Under the pieces are notes generated by a model. The model worked only from the letters and a program-made list of their open reading frames with translations, searched no databases and was not told the origin of the DNA. Below, piece by piece: positions 902 through 55,718 of a DNA stretch of 55,718 nt (within the stretch, counting starts at the first letter, position 1; every line of letters begins with the position of its first letter). Source of the stretch: a virus; the IMG/VR virus record IMGVR_UViG_3300047157_000003, positions 1 to 55,718 of that record; one strand, given 5' to 3'. Position numbers and translations under genes: made by a program.

Positions 902-947
902 TTGACCACGGCGCATATAGTGGGTATATATGGGATATTCTAGCAAA
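902..947 (+). promoter_or_regulatory. Early rightward promoter with TTCTAGYAAA box
   Basis: TTGACC (902-907), a 17-nt spacer and TATATA (925-930) form a near-consensus sigma-70 promoter. TGGGATA follows, then TTCTAGCAAA (938-947), so transcription should start inside this box. The same element is found at other early promoters of this phage (3058, 14133, 55097). The start codon at 961 has a GGAG ribosome site 8 nt upstream. Confidence 0.75.
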
Positions 948-3057: not shown

Positions 3058-3100
3058 TTGACCCCGAACATAAGAAATGTTATGTATTAGGTCTAGCAAA
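3058..3100 (+). promoter_or_regulatory. Second early rightward promoter
   Basis: TTGACC (3058-3063), 17-nt spacer, TATGTA (3081-3086), then GTCTAGCAAA (3091-3100), a variant of the TTCTAGYAAA box, and a GAAAGG ribosome site before the start at 3114. The spacer contains CCGAACA, the phage's recurrent motif. Confidence 0.7.
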
Positions 3101-3113
3101 GAAAGGTAATAAG

Positions 3114-3446
3114 ATGACACAATCATTTCAATGGCTTATCACTTCATCAGGTCACTTCATGCACGGCACGGAAAAGAAGTTTTACAACAACTTAGCCCAT
3201 GCTGAGGAGCTGCCCGAAAATTTTAAAGATGCTTGCCACATGGCGTATGATCATTGCAAGGACTGCACGTCTATTCGTGTTTTACGTCTTGATCGCGATA
3301 CAGGCACTTTTGAAGATCAAACGGCTAAAGCTGTATATTTTATCGCGCAAAGCGTTTTAGACCTTCATGACGAGGAGAACGGCGTTCCCGAATGGGCGCA
3401 GGAGCAATTTGATGCCTTGGAACCAGTATTAGAGGGAGATTACTAA
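3114..3446 (+). CDS. Early hypothetical protein, 110 residues
   Basis: First gene of the second early operon, with its own promoter and GAAAGG ribosome site. It is acidic and soluble. Cys and His residues in the middle (DACHMAYDHCKDC) could bind metal, but the spacing does not match a named zinc finger. Its stop overlaps the next start (TAATG). I do not recognise the family and assign no function. Confidence 0.75.
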   Translation: MTQSFQWLITSSGHFMHGTEKKFYNNLAHAEELPENFKDACHMAYDHCKDCTSIRVLRLDRDTGTFEDQTAKAVYFIAQSVLDLHDEENGVPEWAQEQFDALEPVLEGDY

Positions 3447-6927: not shown

Positions 6928-6949
6928 TTTATTTCTCCTTAAAGATGGG

Positions 6950-6979
6950 ATTATTGCCATAATTTCCCACGATTGTCAA
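6950..6979 (-). promoter_or_regulatory. Promoter for the DUF3846 operon
   Basis: Minus strand: TTGACA (6979-6974, overlapping the primase stop codon), a 17-18 nt spacer containing GTGGGAAATTATGG, then CAATAAT (6956-6950). The spacer resembles the TGGGATTAT element found at other early promoters here. Confidence 0.5.
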
Positions 6980-10445: not shown

Positions 10446-12129
10446 CTATTCAGTCCCTGTTAATTTTTTAACTTGTTCTGAAATTATCTTATCAATCTTT
10501 TGCTTGTTCCAATAGTACCCTAAGCAACAACCTGCCTTATACTTTGTCCAAGAGAAATCAATCGCACTGATTTGTACGCCATTTTTGCGTAAATGTTCTT
10601 TCTGTTTGTCAGTAGCTGCTTGGTTTAACCAACGCTTAGTTTTATTAGCCGCGTTGCTGTCTTCGATCTCACGAAGGAAATCGTCGCCTGCCGCCATCGC
10701 TTGTACCTTCTCACCGATAGAAACCACTCTAGGACGCCCATTCTGCGCCTTCACGATAGCTATCCAGTATTCTCCGATATTACCCACCAAAGTAAACCCA
10801 CTGAAGCCCATAGCCATCATAGCGTTTCCGTTACCAAATGGATCAATCCACATAAACGGAGACAACTTCATCAAGTCATACTCAGTCATAACAAAGCTAT
10901 CTAATGCTTCTTTAACTTTTTTCTGGAACTCATGCTCACAGATAGGACATATGCGCGTATTTGCAGATACTTCACTTCCGCAATCAGGACATATCTTGGT
11001 AGGTGCTTCACCGCCCTCAGTCTTGTGCGCGCCATCTAAGTTAGCTGTTTCGTCCAACCCACCATGCGTAATGATAGATGTTCCAAAATCCATAACAATA
11101 CAGTCTGTTTTAACAATATTTGGATATAGCTCTGGATCAAGTATTCTTAGACCCCTGCCTATCATCTGAACCATTGTGCCTTTTTGCGAGCATGGCCTAG
11201 TTAAGATAACGCAAGATACTGGTGGGGCATCAAACCCTTCTGTCAGCACGGCAACGTTTACGATTACTTGTAAGTCGCCAAACTCCAAATCATGTAGCAT
11301 CTGTGCGCGTTCGTCTTTGTCTGTCTCTCCAGTAACAAAGTTTGCCTTTATTCCAGAGTTTACAAAAGAATCGCAAACATGTTCGGCATGTGAAACTGTA
11401 GAGCAAAACACAACAGTTTTTCTTCCAGATGCTTTTGCTTTCCACTCAGATACAATCCTATCATTAATCACCTGTCGATCCATGATAGCCGCAACTTCTT
11501 CCATATCGTATTCTTTGCCGCGCTTAGTTACGTTATCAAGTTGCTCACCAACGCCAAGATCAATCACGAATGATTTAGGACGCACTAAAAATCCTTCACG
11601 AATTAAAGTTGCTAATTCAATCTGATGTGCGCAATTATTGAATACAGACCGCAAACCTTTGCCATCGCCACGGTTTGGCGTAGCTGTAAAGCCCACGATC
11701 TCTGCGCTGTCATTGTCTTCAAGAACAGCGTTAATAACTTTCATGTAAGTTGGTGCGGCTGCATGGTGGCCTTCATCAACTACAACCATATCAAACATTG
11801 GGCGATCTCGTAAGGTTTCTGTCCCTCGACATTGTTTGAACCATTGAGAACACGGCTTCGCCATCCCAATGTTTAACGGTGCCATTAACAATGCTTGTTG
11901 TAATATACGGATTGACCTTCTCAAATTTCGCTTTGTTTTGCGAAACGAGTTCGTCACGATGCTGTATTACTAAAATTCTTCTGCCTTTTTCATGTCTCTT
12001 ACCAACCAAAGCAGAAAGCATAATTGTTTTGCCTGCTCCTGTAGGAGCGACGATTAGGGTATTACCGTGTTTGTCTAATGCGTTACACGCGTCAGAAACG
12101 GCTACCTCTTGGTAAGGACGTAATATCAT
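10446..12129 (-). CDS. DEAD/DEAH superfamily II helicase, frameshifted
   Basis: Two frames make one helicase of about 560 residues. The N-terminal frame (12129-11791) carries LRPYQ (Q motif) and motif I APTGAGKT. The C-terminal frame (to 10446) carries motif II VVDEGHH, motif III FTATPNR, and the SF2 second RecA domain with ILTRPCSQKG and QMIGRGLR. A C-terminal CPDCG...CPICE zinc ribbon (about 345 residues into the second frame) may bind DNA. The frames join near 11825, at a GGG run, if one G is extra: TMSR then TETLRDRP. This looks like a sequence error. It probably drives strand separation or fork restart within the replication module. Confidence 0.8.
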
Positions 12130-12142
12130 AATAAACCTATTT

Positions 12143-12195
12143 GCTAGAATAGTTGGGGGGATTGTGGCGCACGGCCCCCCTGTCCGTGTTCTAGC
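12143..12195 (-). other. Nested stem-loop in the helicase leader
   Basis: GCTAGAA (12143-12149) pairs with TTCTAGC (12189-12195), and inside it GGGGGG (12155-12160) pairs with CCCCCC (12175-12180). On the minus strand the right arm is the TTCTAGCAAA box used at early promoters. The structure lies between the SSB-like gene and the helicase start, so it could terminate, attenuate or process the message. Confidence 0.6.
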
Positions 12196-12221
12196 GGGTG
12201 CAGATAGACCCTGCCACTAGA

Positions 12222-13700: not shown

Positions 13701-14099
13701 TTATGTATCCAATTCTACTGTGAAGCGACCAACTTCTGTTGTGCGGCATTCTTCAAGAACGCTTCTGATTGCAGGTGGAGCGTTTGTAAATTTACGCTCT
13801 TCTACGGCAAAGGTCAGCTTACCATAGTGCCTTGCGTCTTCATCAGACAAAGTGCCTAATGCCTCACGCAACGAATCTTGATCCCAAGATACTTTTTTAG
13901 TGACAACTGCTTTTATCTTACGATTGCCATCTACTATACTTGTAGTGCCAAAATCTTTGCCTTCAGCGTTTAATGCGGCTGTAGCGCGAGATAAGTAAGT
14001 GTCTTTTAAATCTTGCTCAACGTCCTTCAAATCACCACGCAACTTATCTATAGCTGCCTTTAGTTCATCTCGGAGTTCGAATAATTCACGACTTTGCAT
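13701..14099 (-). CDS. Hypothetical coiled-coil protein, first gene of the replication operon
   Basis: I use ATG 14099 (132 residues, AAAGG ribosome site), as longer frames lack a site. The N-terminal 45 residues form a coiled coil (ELRDELKAAIDKLRGDLKDVE). The C-terminal part is beta-rich and has a basic patch (KIKAVVTKKVSW). The gene ends 1 nt before the Sak4 start. It slightly resembles Gam-like nuclease inhibitors in length and coiled-coil start, but I would not assign that. Promoter: the divergent region at 14133-14163. Confidence 0.65.
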   Translation of the reverse strand: MQSRELFELRDELKAAIDKLRGDLKDVEQDLKDTYLSRATAALNAEGKDFGTTSIVDGNRKIKAVVTKKVSWDQDSLREALGTLSDEDARHYGKLTFAVEERKFTNAPPAIRSVLEECRTTEVGRFTVELDT

Positions 14100-14132
14100 G
14101 TCGAATCCTTTCTGCTTGTTACTAGAGTCCCA

Positions 14133-14163
14133 ACTATAAGCATATAGCATGGGTTCGTGTCAA
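14133..14163 (-). promoter_or_regulatory. Leftward promoter of the replication operon
   Basis: Minus strand: TTGACA (14163-14158), then CTTATA after 17 nt or TATAGT after 19 nt (14138-14133), followed by TTGGGACTCTAGTAAC (box at 14127-14118) and an AAAGG ribosome site. It lies back to back with the plus-strand promoter at 14200. Confidence 0.65.
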
Positions 14164-14199: not shown

Positions 14200-14228
14200 T
14201 TGACATCCCATACTATATGGTATATAGT
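14200..14228 (+). promoter_or_regulatory. Rightward promoter of the 14255 gene
   Basis: TTGACA (14200-14205), 17-nt spacer, TATAGT (14223-14228), followed by GGGATTATC. This is the best promoter in the window. The element TATAGTGGGATTAT matches the other early promoters, but the CTAG box is absent. Confidence 0.8.
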
Positions 14229-14254
14229 GGGATTATCAAATACAGGACATTAAA

Positions 14255-30516: not shown

Positions 30517-33500
30517 TTATCCTTCTAGTGTTGCGATACGTGCTTCTAGTGCATCGTTCTTTGCTGATAATTCTTGTACTGCTTTAATAAGTGGGTAGAC
30601 AAACATAGACTGTGCTACACCTTGTATTCCACTATTTTCTTCTTCAGAGTGACCACCAAAATCTGTAATGTTATGTGTATCTAAAGCCGCTTTAACTTCT
30701 TGGGCAATTAAACCGTACAACTTATTCGTATGCTCTGCGGTTGTTTTTTCTGCGTCATAGTCAGGTAAGGTATTAGGTATTTCAGATTTTGCTCTAAACT
30801 TAAATGTTACAGTGCGTAAATCGTTAATAAAATCTAAACCACAATCAGTGTTGGTCTGAATCTCTTTTTTATATCGTTCATCCGACACCCTAGTAAAAGT
30901 GGCATTAGAGGTAAACTGATTATAAACACGATCAGAGCCATTATCTTTACCAAAAGTAAATGTACTATTTCCAACACCTATTGTAGCTTTACCCAAAACA
31001 ATTTGGCTAGTACCACCGACAGCACTTGTCTCAGTCCCATTCCCAACAAGGGTGTTGTTTGATCCTGTCGTGATTGCATCACCTGCTTGCATACCAATTA
31101 AGGTATTTCTGTCACCTGTGGTTACTGCGTACCCTGCACCAGTACCTACGGCGGTATTGAAGCTATCTACACTTGAAGTAAAGTTTTGTGTAAATAGTGC
31201 TTTTTCACCTATTGCAACTGAGTTCTCGCCTAGAGTATCTGAACCAAGAGCATCTTTGCCAACGGCTGTATTACTGTTTGATGATGTAAGTCCATCCCCC
31301 GCATTTGCACCAATTAAAGTATTAAATCTACCTGTGGTTGCATTATAACCAGCACTTGCGCCAATAGCTACGTTGAAACTATCTGTAGCGGATGTGAAGT
31401 TTTGTGTAGCTAAAGCACCATCACCTATAGCTGTAGATTTAGAACCTAAAGTATCGCCAGATAGTGCGGCATACCCTACAACTACGTTTTTATCAGCATC
31501 AGTAAGAGAATCACCTGCCGAACTACCAATTATTGTATTCCGTATGCCTGTTGTGATTGCTTTAGCAGAGTCAGACCCAATGGCTGTGTTGTAACTACTT
31601 GTAGATGTAGTAAAGTTTTGAGCTTCAAGAGCCGAATGACCGACTGCTGTATTTTTACTTCCTTTAGTATCAGTCGTTAAAGCACTCTGACCAATTGCAA
31701 CATTGTGGTCAGCGTCAGTGAGTGCATCACCTGCAAGTCCGCCGATAATGGTGTTGTTTATACCTGTGGTTACATCATTACCTGCCTGAAAACCTATAGC
31801 TACGTTATAATTATTAGTAGCAGACGTAAAGTTTTGTGCGCCTAAAGCACCATGTCCAATAGCTATTGCTCTACTACCTTTTGTATCAGCACCTAAAGCT
31901 GAAACACCAATAGCCACGTTATAATCAGCGTCCGTTAATGAGTCACCAGCCTCACCACCAATGAGGGTGTTCTCTCTGCCTGTGGTTACTGATAGACCTG
32001 CATCAAAACCAACTGCTGTGTTGTAAGCATCTGTAGTTGATGTAAAGTTTTGTAGACCTAATGCACCTGCGCCAATCGCTACAGACTTTTTACCTAAAGT
32101 ATCACTACTAAGTGCAAAATAACCAAGTGCAGTGTTCTCTTGACCTGTAGTAAGAGCATCACCAGCAAGACCGCCAATGAGGGTATTTCTTATGCTTGTG
32201 GTTACTTGATTACCTGCGGCGTGTCCTACTGCCGTGTTGTAACTATCTGTTGCTGATGTAAAGTTTTGCTTTTCAAGTGCCTTATAACCAATCGCAATAG
32301 ACCGACTACCTAATGTATCTGTACTTAAAGAGGCTGTACCTACTACTATATTATAGTCTGCATCTGTTAGTGCATCACCAGCTAATGCACCTATGAGTGT
32401 GTTTTCTGTGCCTGAGGTTACATTTATTCCTGCCTGCGAACCAACAGCGGTATTTTTAGATGCAGTCGCACTAGATAAAGCGCCTTGCCCCACTGCTGTG
32501 TTTTCCGAACCTGTGATGTTCTGAGTTAAAGAGGCATCTCCTACTGCTACATTGGAGTTACCCTCTGTCGTTGCGCCCAATGAAGTATAACCAACCGCTA
32601 CGTTATAACTTCCAGTAGTAAGAGCATCACCAGCTAAACCACCAATGAGGGTATCTCTTGTGCCTGTGGTTACTTGATTACCTGCACTCTTACCAACTGC
32701 TGTGTTGAATGAATCAGCACTAGATGTAAAGTTCTGTGATTCTAAGGCGGCATGACCAATAGCAACACTGCTTTGCCCCCTAGTGTCTGAGCTTAAAGCG
32801 CCGTACCCGATAGCCACGTTAGCACTACCATCTGTAAGAGCATCTCCTGCTAATCCACCGATGAGGTTATTAAATCGACCTGTGGTTACTGAGCCACCTG
32901 CAAACATACCAACAGCGGTATTATAGGTTTCAGTGGCTGAAGTAAAGTTTTGTGCAACTAAGGCTTGATAGCCAATAGCTACGCTTCTACTTCCTAAAGT
33001 GTCACTGCCTAAAGCACCAGAACCAATCGCCACATTATAATCAGCATCAGAAAGGGCATCACCAGCTAGTCCACCAATGAGGGTGTTGTTTACGCCTGTT
33101 GTGACTTGACCACCTGCACCATAACCTACTGCTGTGTTGTAAGTGTCTGTAGCAGATGTAAAGTTTTGACTGCTTAAAACTGATCGTCCTATTGCAACAG
33201 TTTTACTTCCTAAAGTATCAGAAGTTAGTGCGTTGTATCCTAGTACAGTATTATCACCACCAGTTGTCAAAGCATCACCTGCAATGCCACCGATAAGGGT
33301 ATTTCGAGTGCCTGTGGTGACTGCGGCTCCTGCGTTGTGTCCTACAGCTACGTTATACATACTTGTAGCTGAAGCAGGATTTTGAGCATTTAAAGCAAAT
33401 GTACCAATCGCTACACTTTCAGCACCTACAGTATTTGTTTGTAAAGCATCAACACCTATAGCCACATTATTTGAAGCTGTAGTGTTTGAATCTAAAGCGT

Positions 33501-35499
33501 CTTTACCTATAGCTACGTTATTAGAACCTGTGGTATTTGAGACTAATGCTTCGTAGCCAACAGCCACGTTATTACTTCCTGACCCTGCGGCACGAAGAGA
33601 AGTGTAACCAACTGCTGTATTATTAGCACCTGTTGAGTTTTGCATTGATAACGTGCCGATAGCAGTATTATTATCATTCGTTGTCACAGAAGACAAAGCC
33701 CCGTAACCAAAGGCGGCACTTGAATTACCTGTAGTAACACTATCACCTGCACCGCTACCCATAAGTGTAATATTAACGCCTGTCGTTACTGACTCACCTG
33801 CGGCATATCCAATTGCAGTATTATGAGATTGCGTAGCAGAGGTAAAGTTTTGACTATATAAAGCGTTTCTGCCTATAGCAGTAGAATAACTACCTAACGT
33901 ATCTGATGTTAAAGCGTTATAACCAACAGCCACATTATAATCAGCATCGGTTAAAGAATCTCCTGCTAATGCACCTATGAGGGTGTTTTGAACGCCTGTG
34001 GTGATATTTTCACCCGTATTGTAACCAACAGCTACATTGTAGTTTGTTGTCGCAGAAGTGAAGTTTTGTCTTTCAAGTGCTTGGTATCCAATAGCAACAG
34101 AACCACTACCAAGCGTATCTGTCCCCAAAGCGTCAAACCCAATAGCTACGTTGTAATTAGCATTAGTTAAAGCATCTCCTGCAATTCCACCGATAATAGT
34201 GTTTCTTACGCCTGTGCCTATTTGCGACCCTGCTAATGCACCAACAGCGGTGTTATAATTGCTCGCATTATTATTTTGTGTAAGTAGCGCACGATAACCA
34301 ATAGCAGTAGAAAAGTTACCTGTATCTTCTGTTTTTAATGCTTCCCAACCAAGAGCTACATTAGCTTCACCATTTGTAATCGCAGTACCTGCACTTGAAC
34401 CTATAGCTACATTATAGTTACCACCAGATTGCACACTATCTAATGCAGTATCACCCAACGCCACATTGGCTGTACCAACAGGATAATTCCCGTCTAGCTT
34501 GATTGTGCCGCCGTCTACTGAAACATTACCAGCAACTGTAAGGCCGTCTGTTACGGCTGTGCCTGTTACGTCAATGCCTGTTGATGTTGTGGCTAGTTTT
34601 TCAGAGCCGTAGTTGTACATCAAAGCTGCACCAGTGTTTCCGTTTGCTCTAAAATAGTCAGCCATTCCACCAGAACCGTTATCTGATTTTATAATTACAT
34701 TGTAATCATCAAGGGTGTTTTGAATAATTATACTACCAGTTTGACCCTCAATGTAGTTATTCGCCCCATCATGATAAATCTGTAGGTCAGACCCAGCACC
34801 GAATATGGCTTTTGAGTTGTCCGCAAATGTAATGTCGTCGCCTGTAGATACCGCAAGATCAGTACCGCCAGTCGTGTTTCCGTTAGCAAGTATCTCTGCA
34901 AGCGTATCAACCGTGCCAACCTGACTATCCACATACGCTTTAATAGACTGTTGTGTAGAAAGAGCTGTAGCACTATTAGATGCCATGTTATCTTCATCAA
35001 GAATTGCTGTAACAGAAACGCTACCTAATCTTAAACCATCAAAGTAAGCATTGTTAAATACGTTTGCGGCTACAGCACCTGTGCCGCCACCATTAAAGTA
35101 AACAACTGCTGTTGTACCCGCTGGAATTTCATAGTCATTAGATGCGTTATATGTACCTTGAAAGACAATAATACTGCGTGAGCCAGATAAGGCGTTTCGA
35201 ATGTAAATAATTTTTTCAGCATCATTTGGTGTTAATTGAACATAAGCTGTTGCCCCAAGATCACCACTATCTACATAAGAAATTAAACGATTTCTGCCAT
35301 TAGATGATGCTCCATCTGAAACTGGAAGCGCGTTTGGCGATCCAGAAGAGCCTGCTGATGATAATGTTAAGCTAATTTGACCGTCTAGCGCGGTATCAAT
35401 TAGTTCTAAATTTGTATTTGTTGTATCGCCCCATGTACCTGACTGTTCGCCAGTTCCTATGAGTTCGATCCCATTATTTAACGTATATGTACTAGCCAT
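30517..35499 (-). CDS. Giant tail fibre: YadA-like repeats and S74 intramolecular chaperone, 1660 residues
   Basis: Residues 1-340 are the virion-attachment and shaft part (MASTYTLNNGIELIGTGEQ at the N-terminus). Residues about 340-1500 consist of tandem units of about 73 residues, each with motifs such as NYNVAIG.DALG.DTLGS.SVAIGY.AL and TTG..NTLIGG.AGD; the AIG/AVG steps are typical of YadA-head left-handed beta-rolls and should trimerise. The C-terminal 115 residues hold an S74 chaperone: VSDERYKKEI (Ser-Asp/Lys self-cleavage site) and LYGLIAQEVKAAL. Cleavage at this Ser should release the folded fibre. It probably binds the receptor. Confidence 0.85.
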   Translation of the reverse strand: MASTYTLNNGIELIGTGEQSGTWGDTTNTNLELIDTALDGQISLTLSSAGSSGSPNALPVSDGASSNGRNRLISYVDSGDLGATAYVQLTPNDAEKIIYIRNALSGSRSIIVFQGTYNASNDYEIPAGTTAVVYFNGGGTGAVAANVFNNAYFDGLRLGSVSVTAILDEDNMASNSATALSTQQSIKAYVDSQVGTVDTLAEILANGNTTGGTDLAVSTGDDITFADNSKAIFGAGSDLQIYHDGANNYIEGQTGSIIIQNTLDDYNVIIKSDNGSGGMADYFRANGNTGAALMYNYGSEKLATTSTGIDVTGTAVTDGLTVAGNVSVDGGTIKLDGNYPVGTANVALGDTALDSVQSGGNYNVAIGSSAGTAITNGEANVALGWEALKTEDTGNFSTAIGYRALLTQNNNASNYNTAVGALAGSQIGTGVRNTIIGGIAGDALTNANYNVAIGFDALGTDTLGSGSVAIGYQALERQNFTSATTNYNVAVGYNTGENITTGVQNTLIGALAGDSLTDADYNVAVGYNALTSDTLGSYSTAIGRNALYSQNFTSATQSHNTAIGYAAGESVTTGVNITLMGSGAGDSVTTGNSSAAFGYGALSSVTTNDNNTAIGTLSMQNSTGANNTAVGYTSLRAAGSGSNNVAVGYEALVSNTTGSNNVAIGKDALDSNTTASNNVAIGVDALQTNTVGAESVAIGTFALNAQNPASATSMYNVAVGHNAGAAVTTGTRNTLIGGIAGDALTTGGDNTVLGYNALTSDTLGSKTVAIGRSVLSSQNFTSATDTYNTAVGYGAGGQVTTGVNNTLIGGLAGDALSDADYNVAIGSGALGSDTLGSRSVAIGYQALVAQNFTSATETYNTAVGMFAGGSVTTGRFNNLIGGLAGDALTDGSANVAIGYGALSSDTRGQSSVAIGHAALESQNFTSSADSFNTAVGKSAGNQVTTGTRDTLIGGLAGDALTTGSYNVAVGYTSLGATTEGNSNVAVGDASLTQNITGSENTAVGQGALSSATASKNTAVGSQAGINVTSGTENTLIGALAGDALTDADYNIVVGTASLSTDTLGSRSIAIGYKALEKQNFTSATDSYNTAVGHAAGNQVTTSIRNTLIGGLAGDALTTGQENTALGYFALSSDTLGKKSVAIGAGALGLQNFTSTTDAYNTAVGFDAGLSVTTGRENTLIGGEAGDSLTDADYNVAIGVSALGADTKGSRAIAIGHGALGAQNFTSATNNYNVAIGFQAGNDVTTGINNTIIGGLAGDALTDADHNVAIGQSALTTDTKGSKNTAVGHSALEAQNFTTSTSSYNTAIGSDSAKAITTGIRNTIIGSSAGDSLTDADKNVVVGYAALSGDTLGSKSTAIGDGALATQNFTSATDSFNVAIGASAGYNATTGRFNTLIGANAGDGLTSSNSNTAVGKDALGSDTLGENSVAIGEKALFTQNFTSSVDSFNTAVGTGAGYAVTTGDRNTLIGMQAGDAITTGSNNTLVGNGTETSAVGGTSQIVLGKATIGVGNSTFTFGKDNGSDRVYNQFTSNATFTRVSDERYKKEIQTNTDCGLDFINDLRTVTFKFRAKSEIPNTLPDYDAEKTTAEHTNKLYGLIAQEVKAALDTHNITDFGGHSEEENSGIQGVAQSMFVYPLIKAVQELSAKNDALEARIATLEG
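31050..34480 (-). repeat. Tandem coding repeats of about 219 bp in the fibre gene
   Basis: Some 14 imperfect copies encode the YadA-like rolls. Copy sequences differ by point changes, and some are one half-unit shorter. Such arrays gain or lose units by recombination. Confidence 0.75.
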
Positions 35500-39690: not shown

Positions 39691-40086
39691 TCACGCTAAG
39701 TTGTTGTTTTGAGCGTATAGGATAGTAAAACGAACTAAACCCGCATTTGTTGCAGCCGAAGCAGTAACAGTCAAACGAATGTCTGCTGTTCCTGTGTCTT
39801 GCCATGCCAGCGCAGCACCCGCTTCTGTAGTTGGATATTTACGTCCAGCAGTTGTTCCGCTTGCGAATGTGTTTAAAATAGTAGCTGCACCACCTACGGT
39901 ATCACCAACACTCAAGTTGGTTGTAGCATTCGCCGCAGTAATTACATCAATTACACAGTCAATAATCTGAGAATTTGCAGGAATAACAACGTTAGTAACA
40001 GATTTAATATCAGAGCCTACGGTTGTGCCAGTAGTATCTTTGATTGTTCCTGCCAGAATTGGCCCGGAAAAAGTAGTTGTACCCAT
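39691..40086 (-). CDS. Small virion protein, 131 residues, Thr/Ala-rich
   Basis: The protein is rich in Thr, Ala, Val and Gly, and is likely all beta (VVIPANSQIIDCVIDVITAA and IRLTVTASAATNAGLVRFTI). Its gene lies between the capsid gene and a related small protein, so a decoration or head-associated role is inferred. An AGGAGATAG site lies before ATG 40086. Confidence 0.6.
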   Translation of the reverse strand: MGTTTFSGPILAGTIKDTTGTTVGSDIKSVTNVVIPANSQIIDCVIDVITAANATTNLSVGDTVGGAATILNTFASGTTAGRKYPTTEAGAALAWQDTGTADIRLTVTASAATNAGLVRFTILYAQNNNLA

Positions 40087-40159
40087 GTCTATCTCCTGTC
40101 GTGGGTTAAGTCAGACGCTATTTGCGCCTGTCAGGGATAAGCAAATAATACACAACAAT

Positions 40160-52935: not shown

Positions 52936-53245
52936 TGTTAAGCTCCATTTCCATCTTATAAGATACGGTATGGGAAGATAAGGGAGGCGTCAATGGATTT
53001 TTTTGAAAAAAATTTTTGAGGGGGTCTATGGGACCCATACATACAGACAAACATAGACATCCCCCTTTAGGGGGTGTCCTATTGTCCATGTATCGACCTG
53101 AATGGCGAAAAGTTTTTTTGGGGTAATTGTTTGAGTAAAACACTGTGTAGTAGTATAGATAAAACCTCTGACCGATAAAGGGGGGGCAAGCCCAAATTAA
53201 CCCCGATACCGAACATTTGTTCGGGTTGCGTAGGGTACCTTGGAA
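52936..53245. other. Hairpin-rich non-coding region
   Basis: No credible gene. GGGTC/GACCC (about 53023-53036) and CCCCC/GGGGG (53061-53065 with 53070-53074, flanked by ACA/TGT) form short hairpins. A perfect CCGAACA-TT-TGTTCGG palindrome (about 53206-53221) lies near the end. The region lies between the amidoligase terminator and the late block and could hold a packaging or replication signal or a promoter for the late genes. Confidence 0.5.
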
Positions 53246-53302: not shown

Positions 53303-54404
53303 TTAACCTAGCGCGCCTATTCTGTTTCTATCTGATAGCGTTGTTATTCTATTCTGCCACCATTCGAACAAATCGTCATCAACATTTGCCCATATGCTTT
53401 CAACGCCGCGGCGGTTTTCTGGAAGCAATTGCGCGCCGCTTCCTTCAGTCTCAAAACTGAATAAAACCGTGTAACTGGTGTGGTGAGTTCCATCACCATA
53501 ACGCGCACCATTCGCTTGTTGCGTGCTAGTGACAACCGCCGCATCGCCAACGCGCGTTCTTATTTCAGAGACGCGGCGTCTCACATCGCCTTCAGTACAT
53601 CCCGTTGCGTCCATAATTTCCAATGTGGACGCGCCGCCATCGGTGCGCATTAGATCATAAGTAATTCCAATTCGCGCGCCGCGTCTAAATGGTTGCTCTG
53701 GCGTATCAGTAACAATTGTTCGGTTGCCGCTTTCAATTCTGTTTTCAACAGTATGCAAAACAAGATTGTTTAAAAACTTAACCCAGTTAATAATCTTGGC
53801 CGCTTCAATTGTACCGCTTGCCTGTCTGAATTCAATTGTACCGCGTGACCATGTTTGTAAGTTGATTGATGTAAACTTGCCAAACGTTAATTCGCTAATA
53901 GTCGAAGCTTGTTCAATGCGGCGCGTACTTAATGGTGAGCAATAACGATTATCAGTACGTGAACGAGGGAACATAGAATTGACCGCGTCTTGTTGTCTTG
54001 TATAGCGTTTCATAATATCTTGAACCGCTATAAAATCCATTGGTTCTGAATGGTTTGCAAAAAAGCGGCCAGTTCGTTCTTTAACATCAATACTTTCACC
54101 ACAAAATTGAGTTGCGGTTGTATCGCTATTAAGCGGCGCGTTGCCAATGTGAACGTGCAAACCGCATGATGAATTTACACTTGCGCCAACTTCGTCCAAT
54201 ACACGGCAAATCTTTCTTAATATAATCCCATGCAAAATCACATGGTGCCAATGGTGGCAAAACTATTTCTGCGTCAACTCTTGGTGTTCCATCTGGCTTT
54301 ATTTCGCAACCGCGAATTCCTTCACGGATAAATGCTTGCTTAATACGGCCTATACTTGCGCCGCATGTTTCTATTTCTATTCCATCTGTTGGTATGTAAG
54401 TCAT
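53303..54404 (-). CDS. Amidoligase-family enzyme (GCS-like), frameshifted
   Basis: TDGIEIETCGASIGRIKQAF, SSCGLHVHIGNAPLNSDTTA, YCSPLSTRRIE and LQTWSRGTIEFRQASGTIEA followed by AKIINWVKFLNNLVLH match Amidoligase_2 (PF12224), a relative of glutamine synthetase and gamma-glutamylcysteine ligase that forms amide bonds with ATP. Frames meet near 54215 (AWDYIKK then ICRVLDEVGA) if one base is extra. The merged protein has about 367 residues, with about 120 residues after the catalytic domain. It may modify a host or phage peptide. The last 7 bp overlap a CGCTAGG palindrome. Confidence 0.8.
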
Positions 54405-54420: not shown

Positions 54421-54490
54421 TTTACTAGAATGTGACGGGAAAACCCCCCCACTAAAAATAGATTATACCATATAATCCCATATAACAAGG
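54421..54490 (-). promoter_or_regulatory. Promoter and leader of the amidoligase gene
   Basis: Minus strand: extended -10 TGG-TATAAT (54470-54462), with TTGTTA (54488-54483) 15 nt upstream, and TATGGGATTATATGG in between. The leader has a GGGGGGG...CCC hairpin and the box TTCTAGTAAA (54430-54421), 32 nt after the -10, then an AAAAGG ribosome site. Confidence 0.6.
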
Positions 54491-54597: not shown

Positions 54598-54723
54598 AAT
54601 AACATATATGTGTATGTGTATATGTGTATGTATATATATCTATATTTATATAGTATATATAACCCCGACCCCGAACCCCGAACCCGAAAGCCCGATCCCC
54701 GAAGCCCGACCCGATCCCGAAGG
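54598..54723. repeat. Low-complexity (TATG/TA)n stretch followed by CCCGA repeats
   Basis: 54598-54662 is a TATATGTGTATG-type repeat. It passes abruptly into about 60 nt of CCCGA, CCCCGAA and CCCGATCCCGAAG units. The switch from AT-only to GC-rich DNA is sharp, with no gene. Confidence 0.8.
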
Positions 54724-54736
54724 ATCAGGTTAGTTA

Positions 54737-54955
54737 TTAGCAAATTAATTCTTTTGTACTAATAAAACGCTGGCCGTTTTTACTACAGTATTGTGAAACG
54801 TAAGTGCCAGACTTTTTAAAAGGATATTCTGTTACACTCCATTTATTATCACATTGTTTATTTAAAAAAACATGCATAGCGTTTGAACTGTTAAAGCATT
54901 TAACAGTATATCTATTAATTAAAGTTTGCGGGCTTGAGATTATTGAATATTTCAT
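54737..54955 (-). CDS. Small hypothetical protein, 72 residues
   Basis: The sequence is beta-rich with several Asn and Lys (MHVFLNKQCDNKWSVTEYPF), with two Cys that may pair. It starts 5 nt after the previous gene's stop with an AAAGGA ribosome site. In the operon upstream of the amidoligase gene. No known family. Confidence 0.55.
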   Translation of the reverse strand: MKYSIISSPQTLINRYTVKCFNSSNAMHVFLNKQCDNKWSVTEYPFKKSGTYVSQYCSKNGQRFISTKELIC

Positions 54956-54960
54956 GATCT

Positions 54961-55089
54961 TTATCCTTTGCTAAAATAATCTACAAATTCGCGAGCAACT
55001 CTGCGACTCCAAAACTCGTGAATACAACCTCCATCTACTACATGGTAAACAGTCACCCCGTTTGAATTCTTTACTTCAGTGATTTCCAT
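54961..55089 (-). CDS. Small hypothetical protein, 42 residues
   Basis: MEITEVKNSNGVTVYHVVDG then HEFWSRRVAREFVDYFSKG. It is a short beta-hairpin plus helix. It has a GGAG ribosome site and the strong promoter at 55097. First gene of the leftward unit at the right end. Function unknown. Confidence 0.55.
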   Translation of the reverse strand: MEITEVKNSNGVTVYHVVDGGCIHEFWSRRVAREFVDYFSKG

Positions 55090-55096
55090 CTTTCAT

Positions 55097-55146
55097 CTCC
55101 TTTACTAGAATAATCCCACATTATCCCACACTATATATAATGTCAA
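55097..55146 (-). promoter_or_regulatory. Leftward early promoter with TTCTAGTAAA box
   Basis: Minus strand: TTGACA (55146-55141), 17-nt spacer with ATATAGTGTGGG, TAATGT (55123-55118), GGGATTA, then TTCTAGTAAA (55110-55101) and GGAG. It is nearly identical in layout to the promoter at 902. Confidence 0.75.
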
Positions 55147-55718
55147 TAGGCAAAGTGAAAAAAAGATTCAGCGCTGCTGACTCGCAGCAGGACGCAGCAC
55201 CCCGGCAGCTTTCGGACAATTGTTCGGGTTATGATTCCGGGCAGCGCTGCGACCCGGCGGATCTCACCCGGCAGCTTTACGATCCGGGGATGAAAGTTGC
55301 AGCAGGACCTTTCCCGGTCCGATAACCCGAACAATTCTTCGGCTTGTCATCCCCGGCTGCAAAGATTCAGGTTAGCCCGGTAGCTGCGGCCCGGTGATTC
55401 CCGTGCAGCCTGAATCACGAGTCCCGATCCCGAACAATTCCTCGGGTTGTCATCGCTGGCTGCGAACCCCGATCCCGAATCTTTAGCTGCCCGGCAGAAA
55501 ATCTGGCTGCAAAGATCCAGCAGCGCTATCCCGAACAATTTGTCGGGTTATGACCCCGCCAAAGCGCTGGCAGCCCGAATCTTTAATTTTTGCTAGAGGG
55601 ATTTTAAAGCTGCTGGAGGTATCCCGAACATATTTCGCAACCCCGAACCCGAACAAGTTTGCTTCAGGCGCTGGGCGGTGCGTTTCTGGGCGTCTAAGAC
55701 CCCGCCAGCCGACCCGCA
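55147..55718. repeat. GC-rich non-coding end with CCCGAACAA palindromes
   Basis: No gene is supported. Near-palindromes CCCGAACAATTNNTCGGG occur with AACCCGAACAATTCTTCGGC (about 55324), CCCGAACAATTCCTCGGGTT (about 55429) and CCCGAACAATTTGTCGGGTT (about 55530), and GGACAATTGTTCGGGTTATG at about 55214. GTTATGA or GTTGTCATC follows each. Between them are recurring GCTGCAAAGATTCAG, GGCAGC and CCCGG units. Base composition is unlike the phage genes, so the block may be imported or a special terminal region. Confidence 0.75.

Follow-up and report, generated by a model that had tools for sequence, protein, structure and literature searches.

A TCTAG(Y/A)AAA box in the early-gene leaders of a phage family

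Sequence comparison across a family of uncultured marine phages identifies a short box, TCTAG(Y/A)AAA, as a real and family-wide leader element whose sequence and setting are new, while its kind is already known. The box is early-specific, occurring almost only outside the structural genes, and for 17 of the 24 gene families promoter predictions put it at the 5' end of the mRNA.

Box copies in the window and in related phages

The window, that is the whole stretch of DNA analysed here, is an IMG/VR virus record of 55,718 bases, and none of its relatives in the annotated phage collection is close to identical. Its portal protein shares at most ~48% identity with those of pelagiphages HTVC027P and HTVC023P and of Roseobacter phages CRP-901 and CRP-902, and since relatives of its helicase are also found in metagenome-assembled genomes of Rhodobacteraceae (L268) and Thalassolituus (L267), a marine proteobacterium, perhaps a roseobacter, is the probable host. 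Early genes occupy both ends of the window (0-15 kb and 53-55.7 kb), and the interval from 15.2 to 52 kb contains minus-strand genes that are either structural or without assignment. A gene of 1660 codons with 216-nt tandem repeats (30517-35499, -) probably encodes a repetitive tail or fibre protein, and the Rfam family RF03012 (Mu-gpT-DE RNA) is found at 40084-40136 (-) with 64.6 bits, in a phage the portal of which is pelagiphage-like, not Mu-like. The helicase (10446-12129, -) and amidoligase (53303-54404, -) genes are each distributed over two frames in the window and are continuous in relatives (~560 and ~365 codons, respectively), sequence errors or frameshifts in the window record being the probable cause. 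Palindromes of type CCCGAACAATTGTTCGGG are repeated in GC-rich intergenic DNA at 55118-55718, 54650-54740, 2790-2825 and 53190-53215, with a very high density at the right end.

Exact copies of TTCTAGYAAA number four in the window against 0.59 expected, a count that was reached in 1 of 100 shuffles, and all four are located 21-27 nt 5' of a start codon. With one mismatch allowed, we counted 14 copies in the window against 13.4 expected, which is chance level; the window signal therefore resides only in the exact copies and their place, and degenerate copies were dropped as window evidence. Searching with TCTAGYAAM picked up two more leader copies at 3092 and 14118. Each of the six leader copies precedes a Shine-Dalgarno sequence (SD) and an ATG, the genes concerned being those at 961, 3114, 14099(-), 12129(-), 54404(-) and 55089(-). 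A seventh copy (55589-55597, -) is embedded in GC-rich repeats and has no start codon, and the structural block of the window contains none.

On the plus strand, the exact copy TTCTAGCAAA (938-947) coincides with a predicted +1, is followed by the SD CGGAG and the ATG at 961, and is kept in orthologous leaders, and TCTAGCAAA (3092-3100; read with one more 5' base as GTCTAGCAAA, 3091-3100) precedes the SD AAAGG and the ATG at 3114 and is conserved in the relatives L088 and L026. On the minus strand, TCTAGTAAC (14118-14126) is followed by AAAGG and the ATG at 14099, and TTCTAGTAAA occurs twice as an exact match, at 55101-55110 before GGAG and the ATG at 55089 and at 54421-54430 before AAAGG and the amidoligase ATG at 54404, where TCTAG is kept in the intergenic leaders of orthologs. 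The helicase leader carries TTCTAGCAAA (12140-12149, -) followed by the SD UAGG and the ATG at 12129. Exact matches thus confirm the amidoligase and helicase copies that a preliminary description of this DNA had listed.

Relatives were obtained from viral-contig scans (80 helicase, 36 amidoligase, 46 ORF961 and 80 portal), and the set used, from which redundancy had been removed, comprised 261 loci and 2.58 Mb. There, TCTAGYAAA occurs at 55 distinct sites, 43 of which are located 15-28 nt 5' of an ATG that opens an ORF of 35 codons or more; for 40 permuted motifs composed of the same letters, the corresponding number averaged 1.4 and never exceeded 4. Measured against shuffles and relatives, the earlier observation is confirmed in part: exact copies are above chance and the association with start codons in relatives is overwhelming, but some details need correction. 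When the pattern was relaxed to NCTAGYAA and an SD was required, we obtained 57 leaders in 29 families, and removal of 5 families judged spurious on inspection left 52 non-redundant leaders from 24 unrelated protein families. Loci anchored on early genes contain 16.6 box leaders per 100 kb (240 in 1.45 Mb) and portal-anchored loci 0.5 per 100 kb (4 in 0.74 Mb); of the latter four, one is spurious, and three can be recognised as leaders of early genes.

Since the CTAG-AA core columns are set by the search pattern, invariance in these columns is not itself evidence, and we therefore conducted a separate check on ortholog leaders picked by protein homology without using the motif. NCTAG was kept in 11 of 11 distinct leaders of the 14099 gene, in 10 of 14 helicase leaders and in 9 of 20 amidoligase leaders, with L170 and L172 additionally carrying it at a shifted amidoligase start. 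Ortholog leaders without the box mostly had another coding gene directly upstream and hence no leader. The pyrimidine given after TCTAG in the preliminary description proved too narrow, given that TCTAGAAAA and TCTAGAGAA also occur among the amidoligase orthologs identified through protein homology. As A is allowed after TCTAG and the box is gone where there is no leader, the consensus is the wider TCTAGNAAA, tied to the leader and not to the gene. The box is absent from distant ORF961 orthologs in other phages; a 42-kb stretch of pelagiphage HTVC027P contains one TCTAGYAAA with no start codon after it, and none occurs in 24 kb of Roseobacter phage CRP-901 that cover the structural side only. 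Across all viral contigs, TATTCTAGYAAAGGAG was found in 44 stretches, those outside the family mostly resembling ordinary SDs or coding DNA.

Promoters, dyads and structured RNAs upstream of the box

As stated in the preliminary description, boxes follow the -10 of four predicted early promoters. These are TTGACC-17-TATATA (902-930, +), serving the first of the rightward early operons, TTGACC-17-TATGTA (3058-3086, +), TTGACA...TATAGT of the leftward replication operon (14133-14163, -), which contains the inverted CCCAtgCTATA..TATAGttGGG, and TTGACA-17-TAATGT or, alternatively, -15-GATAAT (55118-55146, -), which is accompanied by two copies of TGGGA. Across the family, a sigma70-like -35/-10 pair ending 4-12 nt (mostly 6-10 nt) 5' of the box was found in 29 leaders from 17 families, with promoters called at a -35/-10 mismatch score <= 4.5, which ~10% of random positions reach. 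From this spacing, +1 would be expected 0-3 nt before TCTAG or inside it. The placement needs to be extended in the 3' direction, in that SDs in the family leaders start 9-16 nt past the box start and the ATG follows the box at 18-27 nt. At promoter sites, the spacing of the box varies about equally relative to the -10 (s.d. 1.9 nt) and relative to the SD (s.d. 2.0 nt), so that a DNA role at +1 would also suit these sites.

The box had been described together with the -10 region as one composite element, TATAnTGGGAT...TTCTAGYAAA. TGGGA is located within 45 nt 5' of the box in 14 of the 17 promoter families, compared to ~10% of control starts, and CATAA-n-TTAY is found instead or in addition in 3 families (controls, 2/1521). 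Contrary to the description, TATAnTGGGAT is not common to all promoters: the one at 3058 has TATGTATTAGG and, in place of TGGGA, the different dyad ACATAAgaaatgTTATGT (3068-3085, +). This dyad lies inside the promoter spacer and is of the CATAA..TTAY type shared by three gene families in relatives. Since two dyad types share the box, the earlier composite separates into two independent modules, one operator-like around the -10 and the other the leader box. TGGGA/TCCCA is a good candidate for the operator of an early regulator, separate from the box. TCCCA-17-TGGGA (14206-14232, +) is an operator-like dyad covering the promoter that serves ORF 14255 in the rightward direction, and TGGGA-14-TCCCA (6946-6969) marks a further promoter, both promoters being without a box.

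Seven families have the box and no promoter at the usual distance. They comprise the amidoligase gene, two small-gene families, a cyclotransferase gene, the helicase leader, a gene inserted behind it and a family in which the box immediately follows a stop codon. Most of them have a GC-rich hairpin or a pseudoknot directly 5' of the box, ending 2-12 nt before it (-20.1 kcal/mol and z -6.1 in one hairpin), and one has neither. The box is thus real, yet it is not specifically a promoter element. Of the two roles proposed earlier, a 5'-end RNA signal of the early regulon is supported by early specificity and by the predicted 5'-end position in 17/24 families, whereas an operator is not favoured, because the box accompanies two types of dyad and occurs in seven promoterless families.

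The amidoligase gene, for which no promoter had been recognised, has a promoter-like TTGTTA-15-TATAAT at 54462-54488 (-) that is conserved in relatives and is separated from the box by the hairpin GUGggggggUUUUCCCGUCAC (54432-54452, -) predicted by folding. With the promoter this far upstream, the message would begin with the order hairpin-box-SD. In amidoligase leaders of relatives, the position of the hairpin is constant and its sequence differs (GTGAGGGGGTTTTCCCGTCAC, AGGGCGACAGCTTTGCCCT, AGGGCGGCGTGCCT). The hairpins of the two small-gene families, GGCGGCGCAATAACGCGCCGCC and GGTGGCGTGATAACGCGCCACC, differ by a compensated change, and the cyclotransferase gene leader contains GGGGGCGCAATGCCCCC. 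Pairing predictions leave the box ~60% unpaired in short leaders and 43% unpaired behind hairpins.

In the helicase leader, sequence covariation identifies a conserved pseudoknotted RNA (12152-12220, -) that is new to Rfam: the window's leader had no match at gathering score, and four relatives had none at E up to 1. From 12220 to 12152, the elements follow in the order CTAG, P1, P2, GCTAGAA, P3 with a G-run loop, P1' and a C-run, and the box comes next. Helices P1 (GUGGC/GCCAC) and P3 (CACGG/CCGUG) and the GGGGGG/CCCCCC pseudoknot form in 17 of 17 distinct relatives, with pairs counted by explicit parsing because MAFFT misaligned P1'. Compensatory changes affect P1 (C-G to U-A, G-C to A-U), several pairs of P3 and the pseudoknot (G-C to A-U in L037), and among 20,000 mononucleotide shuffles only 1 showed such an arrangement. 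P3 and the pseudoknot are retained in more distant copies (L268 and L126), and the RNA is also present in L058, L037 and L039. In several relatives another gene follows the RNA and the box, and hence the module is not exclusive to the helicase. Pairing between TGCTAGA and TCTAGCA within this leader is possible and invariant; L126 alters one side only, and we rejected the pairing for lack of covariation support.

Possible roles of the box

We favour, with a probability of about 0.5, the reading that TCTAG(Y/A)AAA is a family-specific 5'-leader 'start-associated' box that acts as RNA at early translation initiation. At most sites, the promoter would be placed such that the message begins 0-3 nt ahead of the box or inside it, resulting in a leader of ~20-27 nt with the layout 5'-(AU)UCUAGYAAA-N(0-7)-SD-AUG, and at the other sites a stable hairpin or pseudoknotted RNA would take the promoter's place. 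Directly preceded by a free 5' end or by a structured cap, the box would present a defined, mostly unpaired segment just 5' of the ribosome-binding site. This segment could be a landing or standby site whose sequence is recognised by a putative ribosome-associated or phage RNA-binding factor, and such recognition would raise or gate early protein synthesis. Conservation at the level of single letters points towards a specific reader and away from a landing pad that only has to be unpaired. Highly expressed late genes would be expected to carry a plain translation enhancer, yet they are without the box, which argues for regulation. A more specific version, which we regard as tentative, is that UCUAG(N)AAA next to the SD is recognised in the mRNA by a factor which the phage encodes or hijacks, leading to preferential translation or joint switch-off of the early messages, with the bare 5' end, hairpin and pseudoknotted RNA acting as interchangeable 5' modules that tune individual genes.

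The box could instead be a DNA element, either an initial transcribed sequence or a +1 operator, read by RNA polymerase or by a phage repressor or activator. Its limitation to early genes would suit this role, as would the way it overlaps or abuts the predicted +1 in 17 families (4-12 nt from the -10), but we consider it unlikely: the seven families without a promoter there mostly have a hairpin or pseudoknot and in one case a box right after a stop codon, the box accompanies two different operator dyads, and box-free family promoters exist (14200+ and 6979- in the window). Action as RNA is favoured because it covers promoter, hairpin, pseudoknot and bare sites, whereas a DNA role covers promoter sites only. 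The alphaproteobacterial 16S rRNA 3' tail is CCUCCUUUCUAAGGA, and some copies of the box read TCTAGTAAAGGAG, which could pair with it with one bulge. An extended SD, in which UAG-AAAGGAG pairs with the tail, is nevertheless very improbable, and we rejected it given that the variable gap of 9-16 nt between box and SD allows no single continuous pairing for all copies.

Shared ancestry or recombination might also spread promoter-box-SD cassettes onto different small genes, the box being kept as an exchange junction. In close relatives, one promoter and box indeed precede different small genes (F13, F14, F15 and F18). This explanation seems improbable to us, since the flanks have diverged (majority base <= 54% at -3 to -30 across 24 families) around a retained core and since the box also precedes old, stable genes, namely the helicase and the replication operon, whose leaders are kept across divergence. 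Only marginally better placed is an mRNA turnover or processing tag, through which a phage or host endoribonuclease or a later-made translational repressor would shut off early genes in the manner of T4 RegB or RegA. The invariant short core, the early-only distribution and the site in the translation initiation region are what such a tag would predict, and RegB of T4 cuts GGAG in the SDs of early genes (PMC3014915). However, the box is distinct from the SD itself, and none of the early proteins for which Pfam and PHROGs scans were run was identified as a RegB or RegA relative.

Known counterparts and implications

The closest known arrangement is that of the Start-Associated Sequences (SAS) and Extended SAS (ESAS) of cluster K mycobacteriophages (PMC3203893, PMC11373665, PMC12699233); SAS-like motifs have also been described in Microbacterium phages of clusters EF and EC (PMC7302621). 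Like SAS, the box is a short, asymmetric, conserved motif that precedes the starts of many unrelated non-structural genes almost always in sense orientation, and both lie outside the structural module. An inverted repeat directly upstream accompanies about half of the cluster K SAS, resembling the hairpin- or dyad-preceded box, and in phage Adephagia the ESAS includes a SigA-like promoter with an inverted repeat, matching the order promoter/operator-box-SD-ATG seen here with promoters in 17 families and dyads in part of them. The 17-bp imperfect inverted repeat consensus of ESAS is absent here, however, and two short elements, TGGGA and CATAA..TTAY, are found instead. The SAS consensus (GGGATAGGAGCCC in cluster K, GGGAAAGGACCCC in cluster EF) differs from that of the box, and so does the host group of the cluster K phages. 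Moreover, SAS lies 3-9 bp from the start codon and overlaps the SD, whereas the box is 5' of the SD, and the upstream part can here be a true RNA hairpin or covarying pseudoknot, while the authors saw little RNA-hairpin support for ESAS repeats.

The T7 gene 10 leader (V01146) resembles the amidoligase type in its order of a 5' hairpin GGGAGACCACAACGGTTTCCC, then TCTAGAAA, an A/U-rich stretch, SD and ATG. It belongs to one late gene, in contrast to the many early genes here, and its TCTAG is 42 nt from the ATG with a longer stretch before the SD; shared ancestry is not implied. The T4 gene 32 leader (PMC3014915), which also belongs to a replication gene, resembles the helicase leader in having a pseudoknot 5' of a ribosome-binding region that is A/U-rich and unpaired, but the helicase leader has the additional enclosing helix P1 and precedes a helicase gene instead of a single-strand binding protein gene. 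In archaeal viruses, common upstream regulatory sequences likewise mark early and anti-defence genes, many of them functionally uncharacterised (PMC11065993), although those sequences are promoter elements and not leader boxes.

The box of this marine phage family would thus constitute an independent and structurally clearer case, unrelated to the actinobacterial phages with start-associated motifs. With copies both at transcription starts and behind hairpins, it makes RNA and DNA explanations separable, and it has led to a new conserved pseudoknotted RNA. The box also flags uncharacterised early genes, a class that often holds host-takeover and anti-defence genes. If a dedicated factor does read it, the family would possess a post-transcriptional early regulon set by one RNA word.
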